Positions 18,472 through 29,790 of a DNA stretch of 34,387 nt are shown piece by piece. Under the pieces are notes generated by a model, which ran no database searches, was not told where the DNA came from, and worked only from the letters and a program-made list of their open reading frames with translations. This DNA comes from an uncultured Eubacteriales bacterium (lineage in GTDB: Bacteria > Bacillota > Clostridia > Christensenellales > Aristaeellaceae). The stretch spans positions 1-34,387 of the forward strand of contig CADBCX010000018.1 in NCBI GenBank assembly GCA_902793245.1, given 5' to 3'. The translations under genes and the position numbers were made by a program. Position 1 is the first letter of the stretch. Every line of letters begins with the position of its first letter.

Positions 18472-19515
18472 TTATGAACGCAGTTTGGGGTCGAAAGCGT
18501 CCCGCAGGCCGTTGCCCAGCAGATTGAAGGACAGCACGATCAGGAAAATGGACAGGGCCGGGAAAATCAGCTGGTAGGGATAGGAGCGCAGGCCCGTCCG
18601 CGCGTCGGAGGCCAGGGAGCCCAGGGACGGCATGGGGATGGACACGCCCAGGCCCAGGAAGCTCAGGAAGCTTTCGGTGAAAATGGCGCTGGGAATCTGC
18701 ATGGCCGCCACGATGATGATGACGGACACGCAGTTGGGAATCATATGCTTGCGGATGATGCGGGCCGGGGACGCGCCGATGGCCTTGGAGGCCAGCACGT
18801 ATTCCTGCTCCTTGATGGACAGGATCTGGCCGCGCACCTGGCGGGCCATGGACACCCAGTACAGCAGGCCGAACACAATGAAGATGGACACCATGCCCGC
18901 GCCCAGCTTGGCGATCAATTCGCTCTTGGAGGTGGACACCCAGTCCTTGATGGCCACCGACAGCAGAATCACGATCAAAACATCCGGCAGGGAGTAGATG
19001 ATATCCACGATGCGCATCATGATCATGTCCACCTTTCCGCCGAAATAGCCGGAAATGGAGCCGTAAATGATGCCGATCACAATGACGATCAAAGCGGAGA
19101 AGATCCCCACCAGCAGGGAAATGCGGGTGCCGTAAATGACGCGGATGGCGTAGTCCCGGCCCAGGGCGTCGGTACCCATGATATGGGGAAATACGTCGAT
19201 GCCCTTCTTGATTTTCGCCTGCTCCTTGGCACTGTACTGGAAGGGCGCCAGGTTCTGGGCGGACACATCCTGCTTGGTGTAGGTGTAGGGATAGAAGTTG
19301 GGCACGATAAAGGCAATCAGCGCGATGAGGAGGATCACGCACAGGGAGATCATGGCGATGTGGTTTTTCCGCAGGCGGCGCATGGCGTCCCGCATGAAAG
19401 AGACGGACTCCCGCATGGTCACCTGCTGGGCTTTTTCTTCGTCGCTGGCCTTGTCAAACAGATTGGGATCAATCTGCAGGCTCAAAGGGTTTTTGAAATT
19501 CTTGTTTTCAGACAT
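18472..19515 (-). CDS. oppC: Opp-type ABC transporter permease, OppC/DppC-like
   Basis: The 347-residue permease has a hydrophilic N-terminal arm of about 50 residues typical of OppC N-domains, a first membrane helix (AMISLCVILLIALIAFIV), a periplasm-side loop containing MGTDALGRDYAIRVIYGTR, and then five helices. The EAA-type coupling motif reads EYVLASKAIGASPARIIRKH. It lies 42 bases after the OppB-like gene. Confidence 0.93.
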   Translation of the reverse strand: MSENKNFKNPLSLQIDPNLFDKASDEEKAQQVTMRESVSFMRDAMRRLRKNHIAMISLCVILLIALIAFIVPNFYPYTYTKQDVSAQNLAPFQYSAKEQAKIKKGIDVFPHIMGTDALGRDYAIRVIYGTRISLLVGIFSALIVIVIGIIYGSISGYFGGKVDMIMMRIVDIIYSLPDVLIVILLSVAIKDWVSTSKSELIAKLGAGMVSIFIVFGLLYWVSMARQVRGQILSIKEQEYVLASKAIGASPARIIRKHMIPNCVSVIIIVAAMQIPSAIFTESFLSFLGLGVSIPMPSLGSLASDARTGLRSYPYQLIFPALSIFLIVLSFNLLGNGLRDAFDPKLRS

Positions 19516-19557
19516 GTCGTTTCCCCTGCTTCGTTTAATATCTGCAATTCCTGTGCG

Positions 19558-20484
19558 TCAGGTCAGGTCGATGCGTGGATCGACCACCTTATAGAGAATA
19601 TCGCCGATGAAATTCATCAGGATGATCATGGTGGCCAGGAAAATGGTCACGCCCATGATCATCATATAGTCAGTGCGCAGCATGCTGTTGGTGAACAGCC
19701 GGCCCAGGCCGGGCACGGAGAAGATGTTTTCCACCACCATGGAGCCGGTGAGAATGTAGGCCATCATGGGGCCCGCGTAGGTGATAACGGGGGTCAGGGT
19801 ATTTTTCAGGGCGTGCTTGAAAATCACCTTGGTGTTGCTCACGCCTTTGGCCCGGGCGGTGCGGATATAGTCCTGGCCCAGCACGTCCAGCATGGAGGAG
19901 CGCTGCAGGCGGGTCACATAGGCCATGGGATACAGGCTCAGGGAGATGATGGGCAGCACCAGCCCGCCGGGCTGGTTTCCCATGGAGGGCAGCCAGCTCA
20001 ATTGCAGCGCGAAGACCAGCAGCAGGATTGTCGCCATCACGAAGGACGGCATGGAGACCAGCGCCGTCGTGAGCACCTGAATCAGCTTATCCAGCGCTTT
20101 GCCCCTTTGCAGCGCCGCAACGGAGCCGAAGATCACGCCCAGCACAATCGCCAGCAGGCCCGCCGTGAATCCGATGCGGGCGGAATAGGAGAAACCGCCG
20201 ATGATCAGGTCGATCACCGTGTTGCCCACCCAGCCGGTGGACAGGCCGAAATCCCCGTGGAGGATGCTCCACAGGTAATTGAAAAACTGCACCGTCACCG
20301 GCTTGTCAAAGCCGTATTTGGCTTCCAGCGCGGCGATGACCGCGTCGCTCTTGGCCTTTTCAGAACTGAAAGGGCTGGCCGGAATGGCGTGCATCACAAA
20401 AAAAGTGATGGCAATCACCAGAAAAATGGTCAGCAGCGCCATCAGCAGGCGTTTGAATAAATAAGAGAAAAACTTCGCGTTCAT
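19558..20484 (-). CDS. oppB: Opp-type ABC transporter permease, OppB/DppB-like
   Basis: The 308-residue protein starts at ATG 20484 with GGGGAGA upstream; the TTG codon just before is less likely. The N-terminal helix RLLMALLTIFLVIAITFFVMH is typical of OppB, and the coupling motif is DYIRTARAKGVSNTKVIFKHA, followed by GSMVVENIFSVPGLGRLF. Six membrane helices are expected. It is the first gene of the five-gene importer operon, downstream of a clear promoter at 20542-20570. Confidence 0.93.
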   Translation of the reverse strand: MNAKFFSYLFKRLLMALLTIFLVIAITFFVMHAIPASPFSSEKAKSDAVIAALEAKYGFDKPVTVQFFNYLWSILHGDFGLSTGWVGNTVIDLIIGGFSYSARIGFTAGLLAIVLGVIFGSVAALQRGKALDKLIQVLTTALVSMPSFVMATILLLVFALQLSWLPSMGNQPGGLVLPIISLSLYPMAYVTRLQRSSMLDVLGQDYIRTARAKGVSNTKVIFKHALKNTLTPVITYAGPMMAYILTGSMVVENIFSVPGLGRLFTNSMLRTDYMMIMGVTIFLATMIILMNFIGDILYKVVDPRIDLT

Positions 20485-20541
20485 CAACGTATCTCCCCAT
20501 CAGCGCTTGGTCGGCGTGAAAACCGTATGTTTTAGAAAACT

Positions 20542-20570
20542 ATATTAATTGTTTTTTTTCCGTTCGTCAA
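20542..20570 (-). promoter_or_regulatory. Promoter of the opp operon
   Basis: On the minus strand TTGACG (20570-20565) and TAATAT (20547-20542) are separated by 17 bases, with an A-rich spacer. It lies about 58 bases upstream of the OppB-like start codon. Confidence 0.72.
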
Positions 20571-20619
20571 GCGCAAAGCTGATTCTATACATAAAAAAGA
20601 CAACACGATTCAAGTATTT

Positions 20620-20679
20620 CTGGGGGAACCGCTCTTTGGCGTCCAAAGAGCGGTTCCCCCAGGCCCCTTCCGAGAAAGA
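20620..20679. repeat. Palindromic intergenic repeat, copy B
   Basis: The arms 20620-20639 and 20643-20662 form a perfect 20-bp inverted repeat around a 3-base loop (CGT), then comes CCCCTTCCGAGAAAG, the same tail as in the copy at 3570. The arms differ from copy A by a one-base deletion and two substitutions on one side. It sits between the divergent opp and nad promoters. Confidence 0.9.
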
Positions 20680-20734
20680 CGAAAAAATATTATCCGCAAG
20701 TATTCAGATGATGCAGAATGATAATCATTTTGCT

Positions 20735-20770
20735 TTTTGGAAGGGGGTCTGGGGGAAACTCTTCGTTGCC
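20735..20770 (-). repeat. Degenerate half copy of the palindromic repeat, opposite orientation
   Basis: The minus strand reads GAAGAG then TTTCCCCCAG, then ACCCCCTTCC. This matches the right arm and tail of copies A and B with a 3-base gap. With copy B it brackets about 70 bases of AT-rich sequence. Confidence 0.55.
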
Positions 20771-20811
20771 TGAATTGTAACCGCGATTCCTCCCGGCATC
20801 GCAAATTCCGC

Positions 20812-20840
20812 TTTTCATTTCTTCGGAGATGTACTATAAT
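20812..20840 (+). promoter_or_regulatory. Promoter of the nad/pnuC-MoxR operon
   Basis: TTTTCA (20812-20817) and a perfect TATAAT (20835-20840) are separated by 17 bases. Transcription would start near 20847, leaving a leader of about 130 bases before the first gene. Confidence 0.7.
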
Positions 20841-20846
20841 AAATAA

Positions 20847-20976
20847 ATCCTGCGATGAAAGGCTCCCGCGGATGCGGGAAAACGGCATGGAATGTTATCC
20901 TGTTCCGAAAACAAAGGAGCGATGGCGCCGAAGAACGGACAGCCTGCATGCGTCCGCGCGGAGGAGGGAAGGCCGG
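20847..20976 (+). promoter_or_regulatory. Structured 5' leader of the nad/pnuC operon
   Basis: The leader contains a TCCCGC/GCGGGA hairpin (20864-20869 with 20874-20879, loop GGAT), a GGAA/TTCC pair around 20889-20905, and CGGAC/GTCCG arms near 20935-20956 just ahead of the GGAGG site. Upstream of pnuC-type genes, NAD-related riboswitches or NiaR sites are known in Firmicutes. I cannot match this leader to a consensus, so a regulatory role is only suggested. Confidence 0.35.
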
Positions 20977-21474
20977 ATGGACAAACGCTATGCCGTCGGG
21001 ATGTACGGCGGGAAGTTTCTCCCCTATCACAAAGGGCACTTTTACTGTCTGGAAACTGCGTCGAACATGTGCGGAAAAGTGTGGCAGATCCTGACGGCGG
21101 GCGGCGTGGAGGAAGAAGCGTTTCTCCGGAACGCGTCCCCGGAGGACCGGGCGCTGCTCAGCCCGGAGGCGCGGTTCCGCCGCATGGAAGCGGCAGGGCA
21201 GCGCCTTGGCAACGTGGAAACCATCCTGCTGGACATTTCCCGCTGCCGCACACCCGACGGGCGGGAAGATTGGGACGCGGAAACGCCCCTGATCCTGGAA
21301 AGATGCGGGAAATTTGACGCGGTGTTCGGCAGCGAGCCTTCCTACGCCGCCTATTTTTCCCGGGCATATCCCTGGGCGGATTATATCCTGGTGGACCCGC
21401 TTCGGAAGCATTATCCCATCAGCGGAACGGCGATACGAAACGAAAAGGAAGCGGCGGACAGGTGGATCGTGTGA
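20977..21474 (+). CDS. NadR-like nicotinamide-nucleotide adenylyltransferase (single domain)
   Basis: The 165-residue protein starts at ATG 20977, with GGAGGG eight bases upstream; an in-frame upstream extension is Arg-rich and lies in the leader. It is a nucleotidyltransferase with the HxGH signature in GKFLPYHKGH, a SEPSYAAYF segment with LVDPLR, and the C-terminal ISGTAIR, the pattern of the NMN adenylyltransferase domain of NadR. It would make NAD from NMN and ATP. The ribosylnicotinamide kinase domain of full-length NadR (about 170 more residues) is absent, so NR imported by the neighbouring PnuC would need another kinase. It overlaps pnuC by 13 bases. Confidence 0.82.
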   Translation: MDKRYAVGMYGGKFLPYHKGHFYCLETASNMCGKVWQILTAGGVEEEAFLRNASPEDRALLSPEARFRRMEAAGQRLGNVETILLDISRCRTPDGREDWDAETPLILERCGKFDAVFGSEPSYAAYFSRAYPWADYILVDPLRKHYPISGTAIRNEKEAADRWIV

Positions 21475-22199
21475 CATCCGACGGCTGGCGCAACATGAAG
21501 AAGAGCTTCCGGGCGCTGAAATGGTATGAAGGGCTGATGGCCGCCGTCATGGCCCTGATCGCGGTCTGGGCCATGGTGCAGGCGTTTGCCGCGCCGTCCG
21601 AGGGGGGCAACCCGCCCTGGCTGACGGCGGTGAATTTTGTCAGCGCCATCGCGGGCATTTTCTGCGTGTTTTTCTGCGCCAAAGCGTCCGTCAGCAATTT
21701 CGCCTTCGGGCTGATCAATACCATTGCCTATATCGTCTATCTGTGGTATTGGCATATCTGGGGCACCATGTGCCTGGAGCTGTTCCTGTATCTCCCCATG
21801 GGGGTGATCGGGTGGATCAACTGGGCCCGGCACCGGGATGAAAAGCGGCGGGAACTGACGAAGGCGCGCCGGATGAACCTTTGGCAAAACGCGCTGACCG
21901 CTTTGGTGATTCTGGCCTCGACCCTGGTATATCATAAAATCCTGGTTTCCGCGGGCGGCGAAGTGGCCTGGCTGGACGCCGCCACCGTGGCCATCGGCAT
22001 CGTGGCGACGGCGCTGCAGACCTTCCGTTTCCGGGAGCAATACATATGGTGGCTGGTTACGGACGTGGTGGCCGTGGCCATGTACATCCAGCATTTTGAT
22101 CCGGTGTATCTGACCAAAAAGAGTATTTACCTGATCGTGGCGGTCCTGGGGCTGATCAACTGGGTGCGCCTGAGCAGGCAGAACGGGGAGAACAAGTGA
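21462..22199 (+). CDS. pnuC: PnuC-family nicotinamide riboside/mononucleotide transporter
   Basis: The protein has up to 245 residues from GTG 21462, which has AAGGAA eleven bases upstream; ATG 21495 (MKKSFRALKW) is an alternative without a clear binding site. Six to seven membrane helices and the PnuC pattern are clear: NFVSAIAGIFCVFFCAKASV, LINTIAYIVYLWYWHIWG, YLPMGVIGWINW, and RFREQYIWWLVTDVVAVAMY. PnuC proteins take up vitamin B3 ribosides by facilitated diffusion, trapped by phosphorylation inside. The overlap with the adenylyltransferase gene fits a salvage route to NAD. Confidence 0.9.
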   Translation: MDRVTSDGWRNMKKSFRALKWYEGLMAAVMALIAVWAMVQAFAAPSEGGNPPWLTAVNFVSAIAGIFCVFFCAKASVSNFAFGLINTIAYIVYLWYWHIWGTMCLELFLYLPMGVIGWINWARHRDEKRRELTKARRMNLWQNALTALVILASTLVYHKILVSAGGEVAWLDAATVAIGIVATALQTFRFREQYIWWLVTDVVAVAMYIQHFDPVYLTKKSIYLIVAVLGLINWVRLSRQNGENK

Positions 22200-23530
22200 T
22201 GAAGCAGGCGAAGAAAAGCCAAATGTCCTGGTGGCTGGCAGGCATCCTGGCGCTGCCCTTCCTGGATTACGCTTTGCTTCGGCTCATCGTGCTTTCCTTC
22301 CTGGAAAACAAACTGGAAACAGGGCTGTTTCTGATTTTTTACCTGCAGTTTGTTCCCCAGGAAATCGTCCTGCGCAGGATTTTGGGGAAAAAGAGAGACC
22401 GCCCGTGGTATTACTGGGCCGGCTGGATCTGCCGGTGGGCCTGGATCCTGATGATCGCGCTGTCCATCGTGCATCTGATGATGGGTTACGCATGGGAAGG
22501 GCTGCTGGCGCCCGATCTTTACCAAAGCGGCCTGTGGATGGATCAGGCGCTTCTTCCCCTCCGGTGGATCTTTTCCATCAGTGGAATCGCGGTGATGCTG
22601 ATACGGAAGGAAACGCGAAAGAAAGCCCTGATTCATTCGGCCATTGCGTTCTCGTCCATGTTCCTGGGCCTTGGGATCGCAAACCGGATTTATCCGCTGA
22701 AAAACAATCCTTCACTTTCCAACCTGCTGGCCAATTGTTTCCTTTTCCTGATCCCTCACCTGCACGGCCTGGGCGGCGCGCTGTTTTGGCCGCTGTTTGG
22801 GAAAAAGGCCCAGAAAGAAGACGCGGCGAGGAAAGCCGTCCCGGTGCAGGCTCTGCCGCGCAGGCCCGCGCCCGTTCGTGCGGCCGTTCCGCAGCCGAGC
22901 CCGCAGAAGGCAAATCCGCAGAAGGCGAGCCCGCAAATGCCGAAAACCGCGGCGGCGCAGACAGCCCCGCCGCGGGATGCCGAGCAGGAGCTGGCGGAAC
23001 GGAAAGCCGCTTATGAAGCGCGGATGCGCAGGATGGCGGCCGCGAGCAAAAAGGAGCTGGATCGGATATCCGTGGACGAGCTGCTGGAAAAAACGGCCGT
23101 CCGCCTGTTTTACGAAGGCCGGGCCGCCGCGGCGCTTGGCGGGCAAAGGCAGCTAATCTACTGGATGGCCCAGGCGGTGCCCCGGCTGAACGGCCTGATC
23201 CGCCAGCCGATGGGAAAACGGTTCTTTGCCCCGGCGCTTCCGGACGATCCCGACGCGTTCAAGCCCCTCCTGGATTCTCTGTTGACCGAAGCCGCCCGCC
23301 TGCTGGAAAGCAAGGACGCCTCCACGAATCAGGACGCGGGACGAAGCGCCGACCCGGAAGCCCTGTGCGCCGGCTGGTACGCCCTGACCCGCTTTGCCGC
23401 CGTCCGTCCAGACGGCAGCGTCTTTCTGCGGGAGGCGGAAGCACTGAAAGCCCGTTTCAAAAAGGAAAAGCCCCTCCACGCGTGGCTGAAAAGCGCGTAT
23501 GAATCCGCGGAAGAAAGGGATCCCAAATGA
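22199..23530 (+). CDS. Unrecognised membrane protein with Pro/Ala/Gln linker and soluble C-terminal domain
   Basis: The 443-residue protein begins at the ATG that shares one base with the pnuC stop (TGATG), with GGGGAG about nine bases upstream. Residues about 10-205 hold six likely membrane helices, including WYYWAGWICRWAWILMIAL and FLFLIPHLHGLGGALFWPLF. Then comes a disordered linker at about 215-262, rich in Pro, Ala, Gln and Lys, which carries a 15-base tandem repeat (PSPQKANPQKASPQ). A charged helical C-terminal domain follows, starting at about 265 (EQELAERKAAYEARMRRMAA). No family is recognised. Within the operon it would tether its C-terminal domain at the membrane for interaction with the downstream soluble proteins; that is inference. 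Confidence 0.75.
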   Translation: MKQAKKSQMSWWLAGILALPFLDYALLRLIVLSFLENKLETGLFLIFYLQFVPQEIVLRRILGKKRDRPWYYWAGWICRWAWILMIALSIVHLMMGYAWEGLLAPDLYQSGLWMDQALLPLRWIFSISGIAVMLIRKETRKKALIHSAIAFSSMFLGLGIANRIYPLKNNPSLSNLLANCFLFLIPHLHGLGGALFWPLFGKKAQKEDAARKAVPVQALPRRPAPVRAAVPQPSPQKANPQKASPQMPKTAAAQTAPPRDAEQELAERKAAYEARMRRMAAASKKELDRISVDELLEKTAVRLFYEGRAAAALGGQRQLIYWMAQAVPRLNGLIRQPMGKRFFAPALPDDPDAFKPLLDSLLTEAARLLESKDASTNQDAGRSADPEALCAGWYALTRFAAVRPDGSVFLREAEALKARFKKEKPLHAWLKSAYESAEERDPK

Positions 23531-23820
23531 ATCAGGAAACCCTGCTGAAATTTATCCATCGGATCATTACGGTCAATACGGACGCCCCGGCCCTGGCGCT
23601 GGACGAGCTGGAAGCCATCCTGAAAAAGCAGGGAGCATCCCAGGAGCTTCTGGCGCTGATCCGGTCCGCAAGGCAGGGCGCGGCGGAAAGCTCCGAGACC
23701 ATGAGAAAAACGGTGTCCGCTTCCCCCGCCCTATCTCCGCAAGACCTGCAAACCGCCGTCACCCGCGCCCATGAACAAAAGCTCCGGGATGAAGCGGCAA
23801 GCAGAAACGGCAGGTGCTGA
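23527..23820 (+). CDS. Small unrecognised protein (97 residues)
   Basis: It starts with an ATGA overlap with the preceding gene and ends three bases before the next, so it clearly belongs to the operon. The sequence is mostly helical and soluble: residues 1-50 (MNQETLLKFIHRIITVNTD and following) resemble a small helical bundle, and the rest is charged and Ala/Ser-rich. There is no signal peptide, Cys cluster or typical RiPP leader/core layout that would mark it as a substrate of the radical SAM enzyme two genes downstream. An adaptor or regulatory subunit is possible. Confidence 0.65.
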   Translation: MNQETLLKFIHRIITVNTDAPALALDELEAILKKQGASQELLALIRSARQGAAESSETMRKTVSASPALSPQDLQTAVTRAHEQKLRDEAASRNGRC

Positions 23821-23823
23821 CGG

Positions 23824-24837
23824 ATGGACGAGCAGTTTTTTATGGATGACCGGGCGCTGGTGCTGAATCACACGGTGCTGACCCTGCAGTGCGACGGCCC
23901 GGTTTTCACGCTCCCCGCTGAATTCGGCGGCTATGCGGCGACGGCGGTGGGCGGCGGCGCGCTGCAGATCAAGAATGTGCAGGAATTGTCCATTGCGCCG
24001 GGATATACGGAGCTCAAGGAAAACTGCCTGTGCTATACGGCGGCCCTGAAACGGATGAACGTGCCCGAAACGGTGCAGTCGATCTCGCCCATGCTGTTTG
24101 TCGCCAAGCACTATTCGGTCAATCCGGTATTTGCCATTGCCCGCGCCTTGCAGCCGGCTGTGTTTCTGGATATACGCCGGATGATGCTGCGGACGGAAGG
24201 AAAGAAGCGGCTGCTGCCGCCCGCGCTGCTGCAGCGGAACGAAATGGAGCCCGTCCGCTGCCTGATGCAGAATACCGCTCCGCCCGCCGCCGTCATCCGC
24301 AGGGAGATGCGCGTCCTGTTTTTCGGGCATCTGCCGGACGACATAAGCCGCGGGTTCTATTCCGGCACGGTTTTTGATCCCCGGCCCTGTTTTGATTTTG
24401 TTTCCGGCAGGAAAGAAACGGAAGAATACACCGCCGTCATGGAAATGATCGAGGCGGATGATCCCGGGTGGCACGATCCTGAAACGGAAAGAAAGAGCGA
24501 TTTGAACATCCGTTTCGGCAATTCTCCCTTCACGCTCGCCTCATGCCCCGAGGTGAGCGTCGCGGTGAGCGAAGCGCTCCCCGAAGCGCCCGGGCCGGAC
24601 GGGCAGTTCCACGCAGCGTTTCTTTTGTTCAGGAAGCATTTGTTTTTCCCCGCGCTGCGGCGCGTCCGGCATCGGGGCGCCGATTGGTGGATCTACAGCC
24701 GGAATTACCTGACCGGCAGCGCGGAATGCCCGTACCTGCGCGAGGACGTCGGCGTGTTCGGCCGGGACGGGCTGGTGACGGACCGGAAAACTTCGGAGGA
24801 CGTCTATGCAAAATACAGATTCCTTTCCCTGCTCTGA
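23824..24837 (+). CDS. Unrecognised protein with LRR_5-like N-terminal region
   Basis: The 337-residue protein has its start three bases after the preceding stop. Residues about 45-85 (VQELSIAPGYTELKENCLCY and the following ALKRMNVPETVQSIS) read like BspA-type LRR_5 units, which normally mediate protein contacts. The remainder has no motif that I recognise; a Trp/Tyr-rich patch (RGADWWIYSRNYLTG) and many acidic and basic residues are visible. No signal peptide is present, so the LRR-like part should be cytoplasmic, unlike most BspA proteins. It overlaps the radical SAM gene by 32 bases, implying coupled synthesis. Confidence 0.65.
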   Translation: MDEQFFMDDRALVLNHTVLTLQCDGPVFTLPAEFGGYAATAVGGGALQIKNVQELSIAPGYTELKENCLCYTAALKRMNVPETVQSISPMLFVAKHYSVNPVFAIARALQPAVFLDIRRMMLRTEGKKRLLPPALLQRNEMEPVRCLMQNTAPPAAVIRREMRVLFFGHLPDDISRGFYSGTVFDPRPCFDFVSGRKETEEYTAVMEMIEADDPGWHDPETERKSDLNIRFGNSPFTLASCPEVSVAVSEALPEAPGPDGQFHAAFLLFRKHLFFPALRRVRHRGADWWIYSRNYLTGSAECPYLREDVGVFGRDGLVTDRKTSEDVYAKYRFLSLL

Positions 24838-25762
24838 CGCGCCTCGGAGCAAGAGGGGGACGATCCTGGGGAAGGAAGTGGCGCTGAAAAGCTACGTCTG
24901 CTCCCCTGACGGCGTGCATTACCGGCCTAAGGAAGGCGGGATCCGGCTGCAATTGTCCATCCTCCTCACCCGGTATTGCGACGCCCATTGTCCTTTCTGC
25001 ATCGCCGCGCCCACGGACGATCCCCGGACGCTGTCGCTCTCCGCTCTGGAAAAGACGCTGCTGCTGCTAAAAAAAGAGGACTGTGTCCGCGGAATCTCCA
25101 TCACCGGGGGCGAGCCTTTCTCCCGCCCGGAATTGCTGAATGAAGCGGTGTCCATGATCTTCCGGATTTTTGGTTACGGCATGGAAATCACCATTGACAC
25201 CAACGGCACCGGCCTTCAGCATTTGAGGGATATCCGCGAGCTTGCGCATGTGGACACGGTGCATATCAGCCGCCACCATTGGCTGGACGAAAAAAACGAA
25301 GCGCTGTTCGGACGCCCGATGCCGTCCGCAGAGGAGCTGCGGGAAGCCATCCTGTCCGTCGGCATCCGGGATCTTTTCGTGCTCAACTGCATGCTGCTCA
25401 AGGGCTTTGTGGAAACGCCGGAGGACGCCCGCCGCTACCTGGATTTCGCCATCGGAACAGGCGCGCAGAAAGTGTCCTTCATCACCGGCACCCCGGTGAA
25501 CGATTTCGTCCGGCGGCGCCGGGTGGCTTACGAAGATGTGCTCCGGGCGGACGATCCGTCGCTCCTGTTCACCCGGGGCTTTCAGGATTACACTTTTTGC
25601 CGCTGCCAGGACGGAATTTATGTTTCGTCCCAGGGCCGGCTGATCGAATTCTACGGGCGGCATTCGGAGCCGGGCGGCTGCGAATACTGCCGGGGGCTGA
25701 CGCTGACGCCGGAAGGCACCCTGACGGCGGGCTTTGGCGGGCCCGTGCTGTATCAGGCGTGA
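24806..25762 (+). CDS. Radical SAM enzyme
   Basis: The 318-residue protein starts at ATG 24806, inside the previous gene, with GGAGG about six bases upstream. The Fe-S/SAM signature CX3CX2C is Cys58, Cys62, Cys65 (RYCDAHCPFC), followed by the SAM-binding GGEPFSRPE and a TIM-barrel pattern (ITIDTNGTG, VDTVHISRHHW). Near the C-terminus are four further cysteines, Cys265, Cys267, Cys292 and Cys295 (FCRC and CEYC), which could bind an auxiliary iron-sulfur cluster as in SPASM/twitch enzymes, although the spacing is not the classical one. The substrate is unknown; context suggests a modification of, or for, the neighbouring VWA/MoxR module. Confidence 0.85.
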   Translation: MQNTDSFPCSDAPRSKRGTILGKEVALKSYVCSPDGVHYRPKEGGIRLQLSILLTRYCDAHCPFCIAAPTDDPRTLSLSALEKTLLLLKKEDCVRGISITGGEPFSRPELLNEAVSMIFRIFGYGMEITIDTNGTGLQHLRDIRELAHVDTVHISRHHWLDEKNEALFGRPMPSAEELREAILSVGIRDLFVLNCMLLKGFVETPEDARRYLDFAIGTGAQKVSFITGTPVNDFVRRRRVAYEDVLRADDPSLLFTRGFQDYTFCRCQDGIYVSSQGRLIEFYGRHSEPGGCEYCRGLTLTPEGTLTAGFGGPVLYQA

Positions 25763-25778
25763 GAAGGAGGCGGGAAAC

Positions 25779-27023
25779 TTGAATCACCAGGCGATCCAGG
25801 AGGATCTGCAGCGGTTCAAAACCCAAATGCTGATGTACCGGCCTTTCTTTGGCGATATCCTTCTGCGGCTGCCCATCGTGCAGGACGACAGCATTCCCAC
25901 CGCCTGCACCGATGGCCGCACTATCCGTTGGAGCAGCCGTTTCTTCTCCTCCCTGACCAGCGCCCAGCGGCATTACGTGCTGATGCACGAGGTGCTCCAT
26001 ACCCTGCTGATGCATCCCACCCGCATGGAAGGCCACGACCCGGAAATATGGAACGTGGCGGCGGATATGGTGGTCAATTCCATGTGCGATAAAATATGCG
26101 CCGATGTCAACAAGCTCCAGCCCGAAAAGCTGATGGAGCGCCCGTCCGACGGGATTTTCGCGACGATCACCGCCGATTGCACCGTGGAATCCCTGTACGG
26201 CATGCTCAAGGCGGATTATGAGAAGCACGGGAACAAAGCGTCGATTAAGAAGGATTACAAGCCCGGCATGCATAGCCGCGCCATCACGGTGGAAATCACC
26301 CCGGATCGGGATCTGCTTCCCGGCGGATTGGGAGGCCGTCCCCTGACCGCCCGGGAAAAGCAGCTGCTGGAGCAGCAGATCTCTGCGCTGATCCGGAATG
26401 CGGCCGCCGGGGACCGAAGCGATTTCGGCAGCTATTTCATTCCCCGGGAACTGGTGAAGCTGACGCAGCCCAAGCCTGTCTCCTGGCGGCAAATGCTCAA
26501 AGAGCATCTGACGGAAGTCACCAGCGACGACGCCTCCTACGCCACCCCGGAACGAAAATACCTGCACATGGATCTGATCCTGCCCGGCTACTGCCTGACG
26601 GAGGATGGCGATCTTGAATCGCTGTGGGCCTTTGTGGACAGCTCCGGCTCCATCAGCGGCGATACGCTGAACCAGTTTTTGACGCAGCTGTACCGGATCG
26701 TGAAGGAATTTCACTGCGAGCTGAATATTTGCTACTGGGATACCCAGGTGACGGATATTTATAAAACAATTCGGAGCGAAAAGCAGGTGCTGACCTGCCA
26801 GCCCCATCACTCCGGCGGAACGGACATTAACTGCGTGTACCGGTGGATGGAGGAACACCGCGTCAGACCCGACGTGACGCTGATCCTGACCGACGGCTAT
26901 TTCGGTTCCGTATCGGCAGAAAACCGCAGGCTCCTGCGTCCGCGGGACACGGTGCTCTGCATTTCCAACGACAGCCAAAACCCCGAATACGGGAAGATTG
27001 GCAGGATTTGCCGCCTGATTTGA
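25779..27023 (+). CDS. Metallopeptidase-like / VWA domain protein (DUF2201 type)
   Basis: The 414-residue protein has TTG at 25779 as its likely start, eight bases after AAGGAGG; an in-frame ATG at 25734 would overlap the radical SAM gene and has no binding site. The N-terminal half carries HEVLH (70-74) within LMHEVLHTLLMH and an IWNVAADMVVN stretch, the pattern of the putative metallopeptidase domain of DUF2201 proteins. The C-terminal half is a VWA-like domain with the MIDAS motif DSSGS (287-291) and a later LILTDGYFG. Such proteins pair with MoxR-type AAA+ ATPases, here encoded 19 bases downstream. Together they would form an ATP-driven remodelling or metal-insertion machine. Whether the peptidase site is active is not known. 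Confidence 0.88.
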   Translation: MNHQAIQEDLQRFKTQMLMYRPFFGDILLRLPIVQDDSIPTACTDGRTIRWSSRFFSSLTSAQRHYVLMHEVLHTLLMHPTRMEGHDPEIWNVAADMVVNSMCDKICADVNKLQPEKLMERPSDGIFATITADCTVESLYGMLKADYEKHGNKASIKKDYKPGMHSRAITVEITPDRDLLPGGLGGRPLTAREKQLLEQQISALIRNAAAGDRSDFGSYFIPRELVKLTQPKPVSWRQMLKEHLTEVTSDDASYATPERKYLHMDLILPGYCLTEDGDLESLWAFVDSSGSISGDTLNQFLTQLYRIVKEFHCELNICYWDTQVTDIYKTIRSEKQVLTCQPHHSGGTDINCVYRWMEEHRVRPDVTLILTDGYFGSVSAENRRLLRPRDTVLCISNDSQNPEYGKIGRICRLI

Positions 27024-27042
27024 TGAAAGGGAGAGAAACGCC

Positions 27043-28173
27043 ATGACCATCCGTGAATTTCAGGAAACCATCGAATTCAATATCGAGCACAATCTGAAGC
27101 ACTCCATCCTAGGCCTGGGCGCGCCGGGCGTGGGCAAATCGCAGATCATCCGCCGGATCGGGAAAAAGTACGGGTTCAAGGTGATCGATATCCGCCTGGC
27201 CCAGATGAGCGAGGTGGAAATCGGCGGCCTGATTTATCCCAACGAAAGCCGCACGAAAACCGTATGGCTGGCGCCGGACATCCTGCCCAACGAGGAACGG
27301 GACGGCAAGAATACCATCCTGCTGCTGGACGAGATTACCTCCTGCACCAAGCGGGTGCAGGTGGCGGCGTATCAGCTGATCCTGGACCGGCGCATCGGCC
27401 AGTATACCCTGCCGGAAGGCACCTTCGTGGTAGCGCTGGGCAACCGGGAGGACGACGACGGCGTATACATCCATCTGGCCGGGCCCCTGGCGGACCGCTT
27501 TGAAATCCATTATATCGAATCGGATTTTGAAAGCTGGAAATATGACTTCGCGCTGAAAAACGGCATTCATCCGTTTGTGATCGATTTTCTCACCTTTAAG
27601 CCCGCCGCCCTGCATACCCAGGACCCCGACAGCGGGGAAATGGTGTTCGCCACGCCCCGTTCCTGGGAGCGGGTCAGCGATATCCTGAATATCGACGATG
27701 ATATTCACAAAGAAGTGATCAAAAACAAAATCATTGGCAACGTGGGCACGGTGGAAGGCACGCAGTTTGTGGAATACTGCAAGCAGCACCATCAGACCGT
27801 ACCCGTTCAGAAGCTGCTGGACGGCAGCGTGAAAATGCCCGACAGCCCGGAAGAGCTGGCCCTGCTGGCGGATAGGCTGACAAACCATGTGAGTTTCCTT
27901 GCCAAAAACGATACAACAAGCCTGCCGCAGGAACAGGAAAAGCAGGTGGAAGACGTTATCCTGGCGCTGATTCGGCTTCCCCAGGCGGAATATGCGCTGA
28001 TGGGGTTGAAAAAGCTGATGGAAATGAATCGGGAAGCTGTCAAGAAGGTGTTTTCCGGCATGGATCAGCCGGAGGTCATCCGTTTCGTGGAACGGCATAA
28101 ATTTGCCATGGGCCTGACCGCGGGCGGCCTGTCCGGGGATGCCAGGAAAAACTGGATGGCTTTGTGGAAATAG
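27043..28173 (+). CDS. MoxR-type AAA+ ATPase
   Basis: The 376-residue protein has Walker A GAPGVGKS at residues 26-33, a Walker B region ILLLDEIT with Asp96-Glu97, and a sensor-1-like VVALGNRED. The sequence DIRLAQMSEVEIGGLIYP between them is typical of MoxR proteins. The C-terminal 170 residues are helical. It ends the eight-gene operon and follows its VWA partner by 19 bases, with an AGGGAGAG site. Known MoxR/VWA pairs (RavA-ViaA, NorQ-NorD, CbbQ-CbbO) activate or assemble a client protein; the client here is likely within the operon. No terminator was found directly after it. Confidence 0.9.
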   Translation: MTIREFQETIEFNIEHNLKHSILGLGAPGVGKSQIIRRIGKKYGFKVIDIRLAQMSEVEIGGLIYPNESRTKTVWLAPDILPNEERDGKNTILLLDEITSCTKRVQVAAYQLILDRRIGQYTLPEGTFVVALGNREDDDGVYIHLAGPLADRFEIHYIESDFESWKYDFALKNGIHPFVIDFLTFKPAALHTQDPDSGEMVFATPRSWERVSDILNIDDDIHKEVIKNKIIGNVGTVEGTQFVEYCKQHHQTVPVQKLLDGSVKMPDSPEELALLADRLTNHVSFLAKNDTTSLPQEQEKQVEDVILALIRLPQAEYALMGLKKLMEMNREAVKKVFSGMDQPEVIRFVERHKFAMGLTAGGLSGDARKNWMALWK

Positions 28174-28194
28174 CCGTCTGATATTTTTTCCGGG

Positions 28195-28210
28195 AAAACA
28201 TGTCCATGTT
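28195..28210. promoter_or_regulatory. Short perfect-arm palindrome upstream of the GH39 promoter
   Basis: AAACATGTCCATGTTT has arms AAACAT/ATGTTT around GTCC. It lies about 27 bases upstream of the -35 box of the GH39 promoter, where an activator or repressor dimer could bind. Confidence 0.35.
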
Positions 28211-28236
28211 TCAGGCGTCAAATCCCACAATACCGA

Positions 28237-28266
28237 TTGTCAAACCTGTCTTCCAGGTTATATAAT
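28237..28266 (+). promoter_or_regulatory. Promoter of the GH39 gene
   Basis: TTGTCA (28237-28242) and TATAAT (28261-28266) are 18 bases apart, 30 bases before the start codon. This gives the GH39 gene its own transcription independent of the MoxR operon. Confidence 0.8.
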
Positions 28267-28296
28267 GGAAAAAACACAGGGAAAGGCGGAAAACCC

Positions 28297-29790
28297 ATGA
28301 AGAAAAGCATCAGCATTGACCGCGGGGACAAAGCGGCATTCAGAAACCTGACCAATTACTGCGTCGGCACCGGCCGGCTGGATCTGGCGCTGCATCGGGA
28401 ATACCAGGAGCAGCTGAAAGCGGTGCAGGAAAAATGCCATTTCCGCTACATCCGCGGCCATGGCCTGTTCAGCGACCAGATGGGCATTTACCAGGAATGG
28501 GGCCCGCCCTTCGCCGAAAAGCAGCAATGGTACTGCTTCACCTATCTGGACCGGGTGATGGACGCTTACCTGGAAAACGGGCTGGAACCCTTCCTGGAGC
28601 TGGGCTTCATGCCGGAAAAGCTGGCGTCCTCGGAGCAGACGCTCTTTTATTGGAAAGCCCACACCGTGCCGCCCAAGGACATGGCGGAGTGGCAGCGCTT
28701 AATAAAGGAAACCTTAAAGCATCTGGCCCGGCGCTACGGCAGGGAGCGTGTGGAAGCCTGGCCCTGCGAAATCTGGAATGAACCGAACCTGCCCGGCTTC
28801 TGGGAAAAGGCGGACAAGCCCAAGTATCTGGAACTGTACCGCGCCACGGTGCAGGCGGTGAAGGAAATTCTGCCCGGCATGCGCGTGGGCGGCCCCGCCA
28901 TCTGCGGCGGCGAAGGCAGCCAGCAGTGGATCGCCGATTTCCTGGCCTTCTGCCGGGATGAAAGGCTTCCCGTGGATTTCGTGACGCGCCACGCCTACAT
29001 GGGCCAGCAGCCGGAACACAAAGGCCGCTACCTGTACCACACCATGAGCGCCCCGGACGTGCTGATCAGCGAGATGCAAAAGAGCCGGGAAGTGATCGAC
29101 TCCTTCCCGGAATACAGGGGCATTCCCCTGTATATCACCGAATTCAACACCAGCTATAACCCCTTCTGCCCCATTCACGACACCAACCTGAACGCCGCCA
29201 CCTGCTGCGCGCTGCTGTCCCGCCTGGGCGACGTGGCGGACGGCTACAGCTATTGGACCTTCGGCGACGTGTTCGAGGAGCAGGGCATCCCCACCCGGCC
29301 CTTCCACGGCGGCTTCGGCATGATGGCCAACGGGCTGATTCCCAAGCCGACCCTGTGGGCCTTCTCCTTCTTCGCCGGGCTGGAGGGCGAATGCGTCCAC
29401 CGGGACGAGAACGCGGTGATCGTGAAGCGCCAGGACGGCGGGTACGAGGCCGTGCTGTGGAACCTGTGCCAGAACGAAAAAGAAGCTGTGGACTTGACGC
29501 TCTCCTTCCCCATCGCCGGGGACGCCGTGGCGCTGGTGGAGCGGGTGGACGAGCAGTGCTGCAACCCCCTGGCCTGCTGGCACCGCATGGGCGAACCCGC
29601 CGATCTGACGCAGGAGCAGCTTTCCTTCCTCCGCGCCGCCGGCCAGCCCGCCTGCGAAACGCGGACAGCGGAAAACGGCAAGGTTTCTCTGGCCCTCGCG
29701 CCGAACGCGGTGGTGCGCCTGCGCGTGCTGCCCCTCGAAAAAACAACAGACCCCGGGTATGATTATTCCTGGTACTGTAAAGAGTTTTAA
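28297..29790 (+). CDS. GH39 family glycosidase, probable beta-xylosidase
   Basis: The 497-residue protein starts at ATG 28297, with AAAGGCGGA upstream. It shows the GH39 fold: an N-terminal TIM barrel with acid/base Glu162 in EIWNEPN and nucleophile Glu282 in YITEFN, then a beta-sandwich tail. FRYIRGHGLFSD near residue 50 and GYSYWTFGDVFEEQG after the nucleophile are both typical of GH39 beta-xylosidases. No signal peptide is seen, so it would cleave imported xylo-oligosaccharides in the cytoplasm, complementing the GH43 and GH3 enzymes at the left of the window. It is monocistronic, with its own promoter and terminator. Confidence 0.9.
   Translation: MKKSISIDRGDKAAFRNLTNYCVGTGRLDLALHREYQEQLKAVQEKCHFRYIRGHGLFSDQMGIYQEWGPPFAEKQQWYCFTYLDRVMDAYLENGLEPFLELGFMPEKLASSEQTLFYWKAHTVPPKDMAEWQRLIKETLKHLARRYGRERVEAWPCEIWNEPNLPGFWEKADKPKYLELYRATVQAVKEILPGMRVGGPAICGGEGSQQWIADFLAFCRDERLPVDFVTRHAYMGQQPEHKGRYLYHTMSAPDVLISEMQKSREVIDSFPEYRGIPLYITEFNTSYNPFCPIHDTNLNAATCCALLSRLGDVADGYSYWTFGDVFEEQGIPTRPFHGGFGMMANGLIPKPTLWAFSFFAGLEGECVHRDENAVIVKRQDGGYEAVLWNLCQNEKEAVDLTLSFPIAGDAVALVERVDEQCCNPLACWHRMGEPADLTQEQLSFLRAAGQPACETRTAENGKVSLALAPNAVVRLRVLPLEKTTDPGYDYSWYCKEF

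Follow-up and report, generated by a model that had tools for sequence, protein, structure and literature searches.

Radical S-adenosylmethionine (SAM) enzymes paired with a small ribosomally made protein are known from the mycofactocin and pyrroloquinoline quinone (PQQ) pathways (MftA/MftC and PqqA/PqqE), in which the C-terminal part of the small protein is modified and its terminal residue is tyrosine. Other members of the superfamily act on nucleotides, MoaA on GTP and viperin on CTP. We analyzed a stretch of 34,387 nucleotides from an uncultured Eubacteriales bacterium (contig CADBCX010000018.1), here called the window, and within it an eight-gene operon that joins a radical SAM enzyme (rSAM) and a small protein ending in cysteine to a PnuC transporter, a nicotinamide mononucleotide adenylyltransferase (NMNAT), and a MoxR-type ATPase with a von Willebrand factor A (VWA) partner. 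The recurrence of rSAM and a Cys-ending small protein, usually beside genes for NAD import and synthesis, among 24 related loci that fall mostly in three clades (A, B, and C), suggests an undescribed peptide-based pathway tied to NAD.

As in the mycofactocin and PQQ pathways, rSAM has a small protein for a partner, with the C-terminal part as the proposed site of change. Unlike in those pathways, no PqqD-type binder or SPASM match is found among the eight operon proteins, the small protein ends in cysteine rather than tyrosine, NAD salvage genes are neighbors, and the PqqE and mycofactocin cut-offs were missed. Compared with ribosomally synthesized and posttranslationally modified peptides (RiPPs) that have a radical SAM maturase, the conserved small gene is present next to the enzyme gene or one gene away (22/24 loci) and the PqqD/RRE leader-binding domain is not; some known RiPP maturases also lack this domain. 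MoaA (GTP 3′,8-cyclase) gives the best whole-length TM-score among the best 50 structural matches and, like rSAM, has extra cysteines in its C-terminal half. Unlike in MoaA, one of the three extra invariant cysteines of rSAM is N-terminal, and the gene neighbors are NAD genes. The MoxR ATPase adjoins its VWA partner as in RavA-ViaA and NorQ-NorD, with the D.SGS motif kept, but this pair is of the DUF2201 type with HExxH and is accessory to the rSAM/small-protein pair in one clade. With NadR/PnuC salvage the operon shares a PnuC above its cut-off and intact NMNAT motifs; it differs in a short NMNAT without the kinase domain, close copies of which occur solely with an rSAM locus (150 family genomes). 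Mycofactocin is reported to be tied to nicotinoproteins (PMC3023750). FtsH ternary systems combine a MoxR-vWA pair with a radical SAM enzyme whose likely role is to modify a peptide effector (Kaur et al. 2020, PMC7159879), and the window likewise holds MoxR, a VWA protein, and rSAM, with the small protein encoded separately. Against the tandem FtsH of these systems, no protein with two FtsH-type ATPase domains is found among the eight operon proteins; the window VWA protein has a DUF2201_N metallopeptidase domain, NAD genes are present that the pertinent section of PMC7159879 does not list, and, for two of the three clades, the fetched stretches hold the rSAM/small-protein pair and no MoxR-VWA. 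Among the matches listed, a search of titles and abstract openings, with most subscription journals outside its range, found no description of the pairing of rSAM, a C-terminal-Cys protein, and NAD genes.

The enzyme family and its small protein

By its sequence, rSAM defines a rare family, mostly in three clades. Within the window's family, 10 of 300 genomes encode it, own genome included (E ≤ 1e-12). It was also found in 2/297 genomes of the order (E 1e-15), in 1/398 of a phylum sample, this being its own genome (E 1e-25), and in 3/193 of a second order with the centre genome counted; the 20 other same-genus genomes listed all lack it. A scan of genome contigs, which gave the best 80 of 105 relatives, contributed 18 loci (L054 to L071) above a gap between E 9e-27 and 6e-10. 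Together with the window and loci in G521, G463, G350, G1012, and G1011, these make 24 family loci, a lower bound. The G350 locus was counted once, though two contig ends each hold part of its rSAM gene, and a weaker match in G463 (E 8e-20) was excluded from all counts. Hosts in the contig scan were gut and rumen Clostridiales, Lachnospiraceae, Butyrivibrio, Erysipelotrichaceae, Solobacterium, Bacilli, Bacillales, and a Tenericutes bin. A viral origin was rejected: one scan of viral contigs returned nothing and the other only two remote radical SAM loci (E 2e-9 and 5e-4), with no family member. In Butyrivibrio, two contig ends (L155 6964-8417 and L057 1-1450) overlap by ~1.45 kb at purF-rSAM, purF being identified by eye, and are not identical throughout; the seeming second copy most likely represents one locus on overlapping ends of two contigs, as an assembly or strain variant.

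In a maximum-likelihood tree of 21 family and 4 outgroup rows, in which L051/L052, L071, and L161 are not represented, clade A comprises 10 rows, window included (support 96/99), clade B 7 rows (98/98), and clade C 4 rows (90/95). One outgroup row, L094, lies on a very long branch and falls among the family at an open fork (85/85). The rSAM enzyme and the small protein are common to all three clades, and the genes for the leucine-rich repeat (LRR) protein, the VWA protein, and MoxR mark clade A only.

The enzyme matches PF04055 with 64.7 bits against a cut-off of 29.5 (E 1.5e-17). Its CX3CX2C motif (C58, C62, and C65) is invariant in 20/20 aligned rows, as are C32, C265, C267, H153, SRH at 155 to 157, Y272, and Y283. 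We infer that C32, C265, and C267 would ligate a second cluster with one open site. The AlphaFold2 model (mean predicted local distance difference test [pLDDT] score, 91.8) has MoaA (1tv7) as its top whole-length Foldseek match among the best 50, with TM-scores of 0.64/0.63, while tetraether synthase, viperins, and SuiB gave lower E-values. Profile matches to the PDB include viperins, SuiB, MoaA, YydG/EpeE, and PqqE, and the best solved relatives include both peptide maturases (SuiB, YydG/EpeE, and SkfB) and nucleotide enzymes (MoaA and viperin). Among the NCBIfam matches listed, no curated radical SAM family cut-off was reached: the MoaA model TIGR02666 gave 43.7 of 284.05 bits needed (71.8 for the L067 member) and the viperin model NF038283 gave 27.2 of 180.

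A small protein gene adjoins the rSAM gene or stands one gene off, and 23 such proteins were found in 22 of the 24 loci. They are 92 to 150 amino acids (aa) long or form a domain of a longer protein; cysteine is the last residue in 21 and the next to last in the other 2. Among control open reading frames (ORFs) from 70 of 71 non-family loci (one left out for N), cysteine stands in the last two positions in 17/710, and in 6/134 of those of 80 to 160 aa. This control supersedes an earlier one that contained family loci (30/897 ORFs; 19/173 small ones). The small proteins form three groups with little or no recognizable sequence similarity between them; in profile alignments by hhalign, groups 1 and 3 resemble each other over the leader (probability 64%, E 7e-5) and group 2 does not. 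Tails in clade C are rich in Ser, Gly, and Cys (SSSCGG, CGG, and RSC; e.g., SSSCGG...RSC) with further cysteines, like the cores of radical SAM-modified peptides, and in G521 (L046 10942-12192) the C-terminal-Cys domain is fused to the C terminus of a relative of the operon's membrane protein. No library model reached its cut-off on the small proteins searched, those for DNA-binding and known sensor domains included, and the L061 protein had no PDB match. The original prediction had called the 97-residue protein of the window (p97) unrecognized; locus comparison now places it in a set, missed at that stage, with Cys at or next to the C terminus, and this membership points to p97 as a candidate substrate or carrier of rSAM.

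A HemN-like second radical SAM protein (best model, STM4012 family, below cut-off) adjoins the C-terminal-Cys protein in L069 (2941-4263) and L160 (10128-11426), both of them loci without NAD genes. In L053 (10481-10681), a 66-aa ORF downstream of rSAM has a leader-like stretch (LGKLEKISGGYTG) and looks by eye like a bacteriocin precursor, with no Pfam match.

Linkage to NAD genes

PnuC together with NMNAT or NadR is present in the fetched stretch of 16/24 family loci. None of the 62 non-family radical SAM loci of the same scan has relatives of PnuC, NadR, NMNAT, VWA, MoxR, or LRR (E 1e-5), and the difference in NAD adjacency gives a Fisher p of 8e-12, with the contig-cut loci L054 and L058 entered as lacking NAD genes. 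Clade B has the small protein with rSAM in 7/7 loci and NMNAT or NadR with PnuC in 6/7; in 3/4 clade C loci, the pair lies inside an NAD gene block. NMNAT occurs in two types, short and NadR-length, both of them within clade B, and gene order varies as well. The NadR-length relatives (336 to 351 aa) are in L068, L053, L061, and L070. Between them, L067, L061, and L065 hold Pfam matches to Isochorismatase (nicotinamidase-like), NAPRTase, NUDIX, NAD synthase, nucleotidyltransferase, a small kinase-like protein, CinA (PncC-like), NAD kinase, and an NrtR-type regulator. In the Bacilli loci L065 and L067, the pair is surrounded by an NAD gene block with the NrtR-type regulator, and L071, outside the tree, has a block like that of the clade C loci. 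With three clades showing the link, and NMNAT type and gene order varying between them, the data support a coupling to NAD genes that goes beyond the shared promoter offered as one explanation.

In the window, PnuC scores 113.8 bits against TIGR01528 (cut-off 42.45) and matches PF04973 at E 4e-36. The NMNAT gives 53 of the 341 bits needed for the NadR model TIGR01526, over residues 7 to 156, and lacks the kinase part, so that it does not qualify as a two-domain NadR; it has NadR matches in the PDB and keeps the HKGH and ISGTAIR motifs. All 12 aligned NMNAT rows, of which 9 are short (the window's among them) or 3 full, have HxGH and (I/V)S..R; one variant is ISGR, in L048. Close copies of the short NMNAT are found in 3/150 family genomes, the window's among them, and all three carry an rSAM locus; three further matches (31 to 34% identity) lie in frames of 365, 482, and 366 aa, which leave room for a full NadR. 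A possible second NadR in the own genome was rejected, as the AAA_28 match at C64 lies in a 387-aa frame and no ORF there matched NadR or PnuC (E 1e-3). NadA was not found in this genome, whose assembly is 83.75% complete. In G463, which also holds a family locus, the remote rSAM relative (L157 8076-10219, minus strand; E 8e-20 to the family profile) overlaps a NAPRTase gene at the end of the latter, with no small Cys-ending ORF observed next to it.

The operon and its clade A module

The eight same-strand ORFs lie where originally predicted, and the claim that they form a unit is borne out across genomes (Table 1). The complete order, from NMNAT through MoxR, recurs in G360 and G393, which represent two other genera of the family, and such conservation in other genera means that the arrangement is not due to chance; homologues that are scattered and rarely adjacent, the pattern that would have spoken against a unit, were not what the genome comparison found. 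In G350, with its two contigs treated as one locus, a NadR-length gene and PnuC come after MoxR. Junction gaps in the window are 20, −4, −4, 3, −32, 16, and 19 bases with PnuC read from its ATG, and the first junction (NMNAT/PnuC) becomes an overlap if PnuC is read from the upstream GTG. Of the single promoter proposed for the operon, a promoter-like site is indeed present, but it is weak evidence alone, since it is one of 6 that the two strands of 20400-28400 hold, where shuffled sequence would give 2.9.

Table 1. Features of the operon and its upstream region, in window coordinates
Feature	Position	Strand	Basis or remark
Promoter-like site	20812..20840	+	TTTTCA-17-TATAAT, 10/12, upstream of operon
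Short NMN adenylyltransferase, 165 aa	20977..21474	+	NadR-type without ribosylnicotinamide kinase domain; TIGR01526
PnuC nicotinamide riboside transporter	21495..22199 (alternative GTG start 21462)	+	TIGR01528, PF04973
Membrane protein, 444 aa, Pro/Ala linker and soluble C-terminal part	22196..23530	+	Hydropathy
Small protein, 97 aa (p97), ends ...NGRC	23527..23820	+	Proposed radical SAM substrate/carrier
LRR protein, 337 aa, C-terminal domain without fold match	23824..24837	+	Family profile vs PDB
Radical SAM enzyme, 318 aa, CX3CX2C plus C32, C265, C267	24806..25762	+	PF04055
DUF2201 protein, metallopeptidase-like (HEVLH) and VWA (DxSxS), TTG start	25779..27023	+	PF13203, PF09967
MoxR-type AAA+ ATPase	27043..28173	+	PF07728

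Identities assigned earlier to the last three products stand, with PF04055, DUF2201_N, DUF2201, and AAA_5 all passing their cut-offs. The DUF2201 protein matches PF13203 at E 5e-32 and PF09967 at E 7e-14; HExxH and D.SGS are present in 10/10 copies read, GGTD in 7/10, and LTDG in 9/10 (one copy cut). MoxR reaches 27.6 bits against PF07728 (cut-off 22), and GAPGVGKS and LLLDE are kept in nine aligned copies. With a MoxR AAA+ protein adjacent to a VWA protein that has a metal ion-dependent adhesion site (MIDAS) motif, the two genes qualify as a MoxR-VWA pair; neither protein had a sequence match in the PDB. The six helices ascribed to the membrane protein compare with four strong hydropathy peaks in the window and three to eight in five relatives. 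The LRR-like label is weak for the single protein (LRR_5, E 0.02) and firm with a family profile, in the N-terminal third, where solved LRR proteins in the PDB match at E down to 1e-14 (positions 51 to 105). The AlphaFold2 model of the LRR protein has a pLDDT of 79.5, and its C-terminal domain gave no Foldseek match at E ≤ 0.001.

One model of the original prediction was an ATP-driven machine, but a place for the MoxR-VWA pair at the heart of the system is not supported: LRR and VWA genes are present in just 11/24 loci, namely, all 10 of clade A and G350, which is outside the tree, with a weak LRR match in L057 (E 9.5e-5). Nine of these 11 also have MoxR, and the remaining two (L055 and L060) stop at a contig edge; the stretches fetched for clades B and C showed no MoxR-VWA genes. 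Nine further DUF2201 loci from the order showed neither NAD nor rSAM relatives, and eight of these have a protein of 1140 to 1235 aa ahead of the pair (L027 2778-8600, L028 2613-8440, and, similarly, L030 to L035). It is therefore more likely that the DUF2201 MoxR-VWA pair became attached to the rSAM module than that it was its origin. The two of these large proteins that were scanned have SNF2/ResIII and Helicase_C domains, and the three genes possibly form a nucleic-acid-acting system.

The next gene downstream of MoxR, after 63 bases, encodes a GH39 glycosidase. A strong promoter-like site (28237-28266; 11/12) overlaps its listed TTG start, and for this reason its true start is probably further downstream and the gene likely forms a transcript separate from the operon. 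Upstream, on the minus strand (18472-20487), lie two divergent oligopeptide-type ABC permeases (BPD_transp_1 and OppC_N). No relevant riboswitch family of Rfam was found among the nine sources scanned.

A proposed pathway and its alternatives

We propose, with a probability of about one half, that rSAM modifies the small protein at its C-terminal Cys, as part of a pathway using or controlling nicotinamide nucleotides, and that in clade A the MoxR-VWA pair matures, releases, or inserts the product. The core would be rSAM and a small protein made as its substrate, consisting of a leader-like body and a tail ending in cysteine. The enzyme, with a MoaA-like overall fold, the SAM-cleaving [4Fe-4S] motif, and the putative second cluster on C32/C265/C267, would receive the terminal Cys at the open site of that cluster, and the C terminus would be modified. 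The product may act with, or be built from, nicotinamide nucleotides, whose pool PnuC and NMNAT or NadR would feed. In clade A, the membrane protein might tether the small protein, a proposal suggested by the natural fusion in G521, and the LRR protein and MoxR with its metallopeptidase-VWA partner would release the product or insert it into a client. The ATP-driven, membrane-tethered machine with an NAD-dependent client that had first been envisaged may be a later step in clade A. What we observe is that the genes are linked, that the terminal Cys and the enzyme cysteines are conserved, and that the catalytic motifs are intact; the substrate relation, the second cluster, and the roles of NAD and of MoxR-VWA are what the proposal would add to them.

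Several observations weigh against this proposal. NAD genes are absent from the fetched stretch in 6/24 loci (L057, L059, L060, L069, L160, and L161), and L054 and L058 are cut by contig ends on the NAD side. The family loci are akin, so that counts of the NAD link are not independent events, and on the tree the NAD label changes 5 times against a shuffled mean of 6.1, a value equally low in 121/500 shuffles, from which it follows that the link was gained or lost more than once. Two loci yielded no small protein, L054, which is cut, and L161, where none is recognizable and part of the rSAM C terminus is missing as well. The small genes of L049, L047, and L065 were located by reading the site rather than by homology, those of L061, L067, and L071 are the ORF directly upstream of rSAM, and that of L160, one gene off, was picked by eye and thus not blind to its Cys. 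In the window itself, the LRR gene stands between the small-protein gene and the rSAM gene. No RiPP precursor model in Pfam or NCBIfam matched p97, nor did any match the other small proteins searched (six against NCBIfam and five against Pfam). The eight operon proteins gave no PqqD/RRE and no SPASM match (Pfam, E 0.1), and NCBIfam SPASM maturase models stayed far below cut-off.

One alternative is an enzyme that acts directly on a nicotinamide nucleotide, making or repairing an NAD analogue, with the small protein as a partner whose Cys completes the second cluster or feeds electrons. Nucleotide enzymes stand beside peptide maturases among the closest folds and profiles, NAD genes accompany two-thirds of the loci (16/24), the bodies of the small proteins are large, and the uncounted rSAM relative of G463 adjoins a NAPRTase gene with no small C-terminal-Cys ORF seen beside it. 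Yet the SSSCGG tails of clade C fit a modified peptide and not a ligand, the MoaA and viperin cut-offs are far off (43.7 of 284 and 27.2 of 180), and the six loci named above do without NAD genes; we consider direct action on the nucleotide unlikely. A ribosomally templated cofactor derived from NAD would combine peptide and nucleotide: rSAM would join the C-terminal Cys of the small protein to a nicotinamide nucleotide to give a peptide-borne nicotinamide or pincer-like cofactor, PnuC and the dedicated NMNAT would supply and cap the nucleotide, and in clade A the DUF2201 peptidase-VWA protein and MoxR would cut it free and insert it into a client enzyme. We offer this scheme as speculation, and quite an unlikely one as it stands.

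That the operon merely places ordinary nicotinamide riboside salvage and an unrelated rSAM/MoxR-VWA module behind one promoter would agree with the Lachnospiraceae-type loci L057, L059, and L060, which hold rSAM, the small protein, LRR, and VWA without NAD genes, and with an NAD label that is not clustered on the tree beyond shuffles. The Fisher test of NAD adjacency against other radical SAM loci, the presence of the link in all three clades with NMNAT types and orders swapped, and the occurrence of close short-NMNAT copies solely in genomes with an rSAM locus (3/3 in the 150-genome sample) all speak against such a coincidence, which we regard as improbable. The odds are longer still for a regulatory device in which the small protein senses or controls NAD status and rSAM, with MoxR-VWA in clade A, switches it: the Bacilli pair does sit in NAD gene blocks with an NrtR-type regulator, and the G521 fusion is membrane tethered, but no DNA-binding or known sensor domain reached its cut-off in the small proteins searched, and radical chemistry would be costly for a switch. 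Finally, an anti-phage or other conflict system built like the MoxR-vWA ternary ones, with rSAM and a peptide effector, recalls the published FtsH ternary systems with a radical SAM enzyme likely modifying such an effector (PMC7159879), the weak, below-cut-off bpX6 and bpMoxR matches, and the sporadic distribution of the rSAM family, but is very improbable given that no operon gene matches FtsH, VMAP, iSTAND, or beta-propeller models of Pfam above cut-off, that clades B and C showed no MoxR-VWA in the stretches fetched, and that the NAD-gene placement would be unlike a defense island. A defense reading was also rejected on PADLOC results, which gave just weak viperin-like and AAA-type matches.

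For the DUF2201-type MoxR-VWA machine, a clear context is gained; the word DUF2201 is rare in the literature searched. NAD metabolism is regarded as well mapped, and a recurrent radical SAM enzyme with a C-terminal-Cys protein in its midst points to a missing reaction, for which the candidates are a new cofactor, a new step of salvage or repair, and a new form of control.

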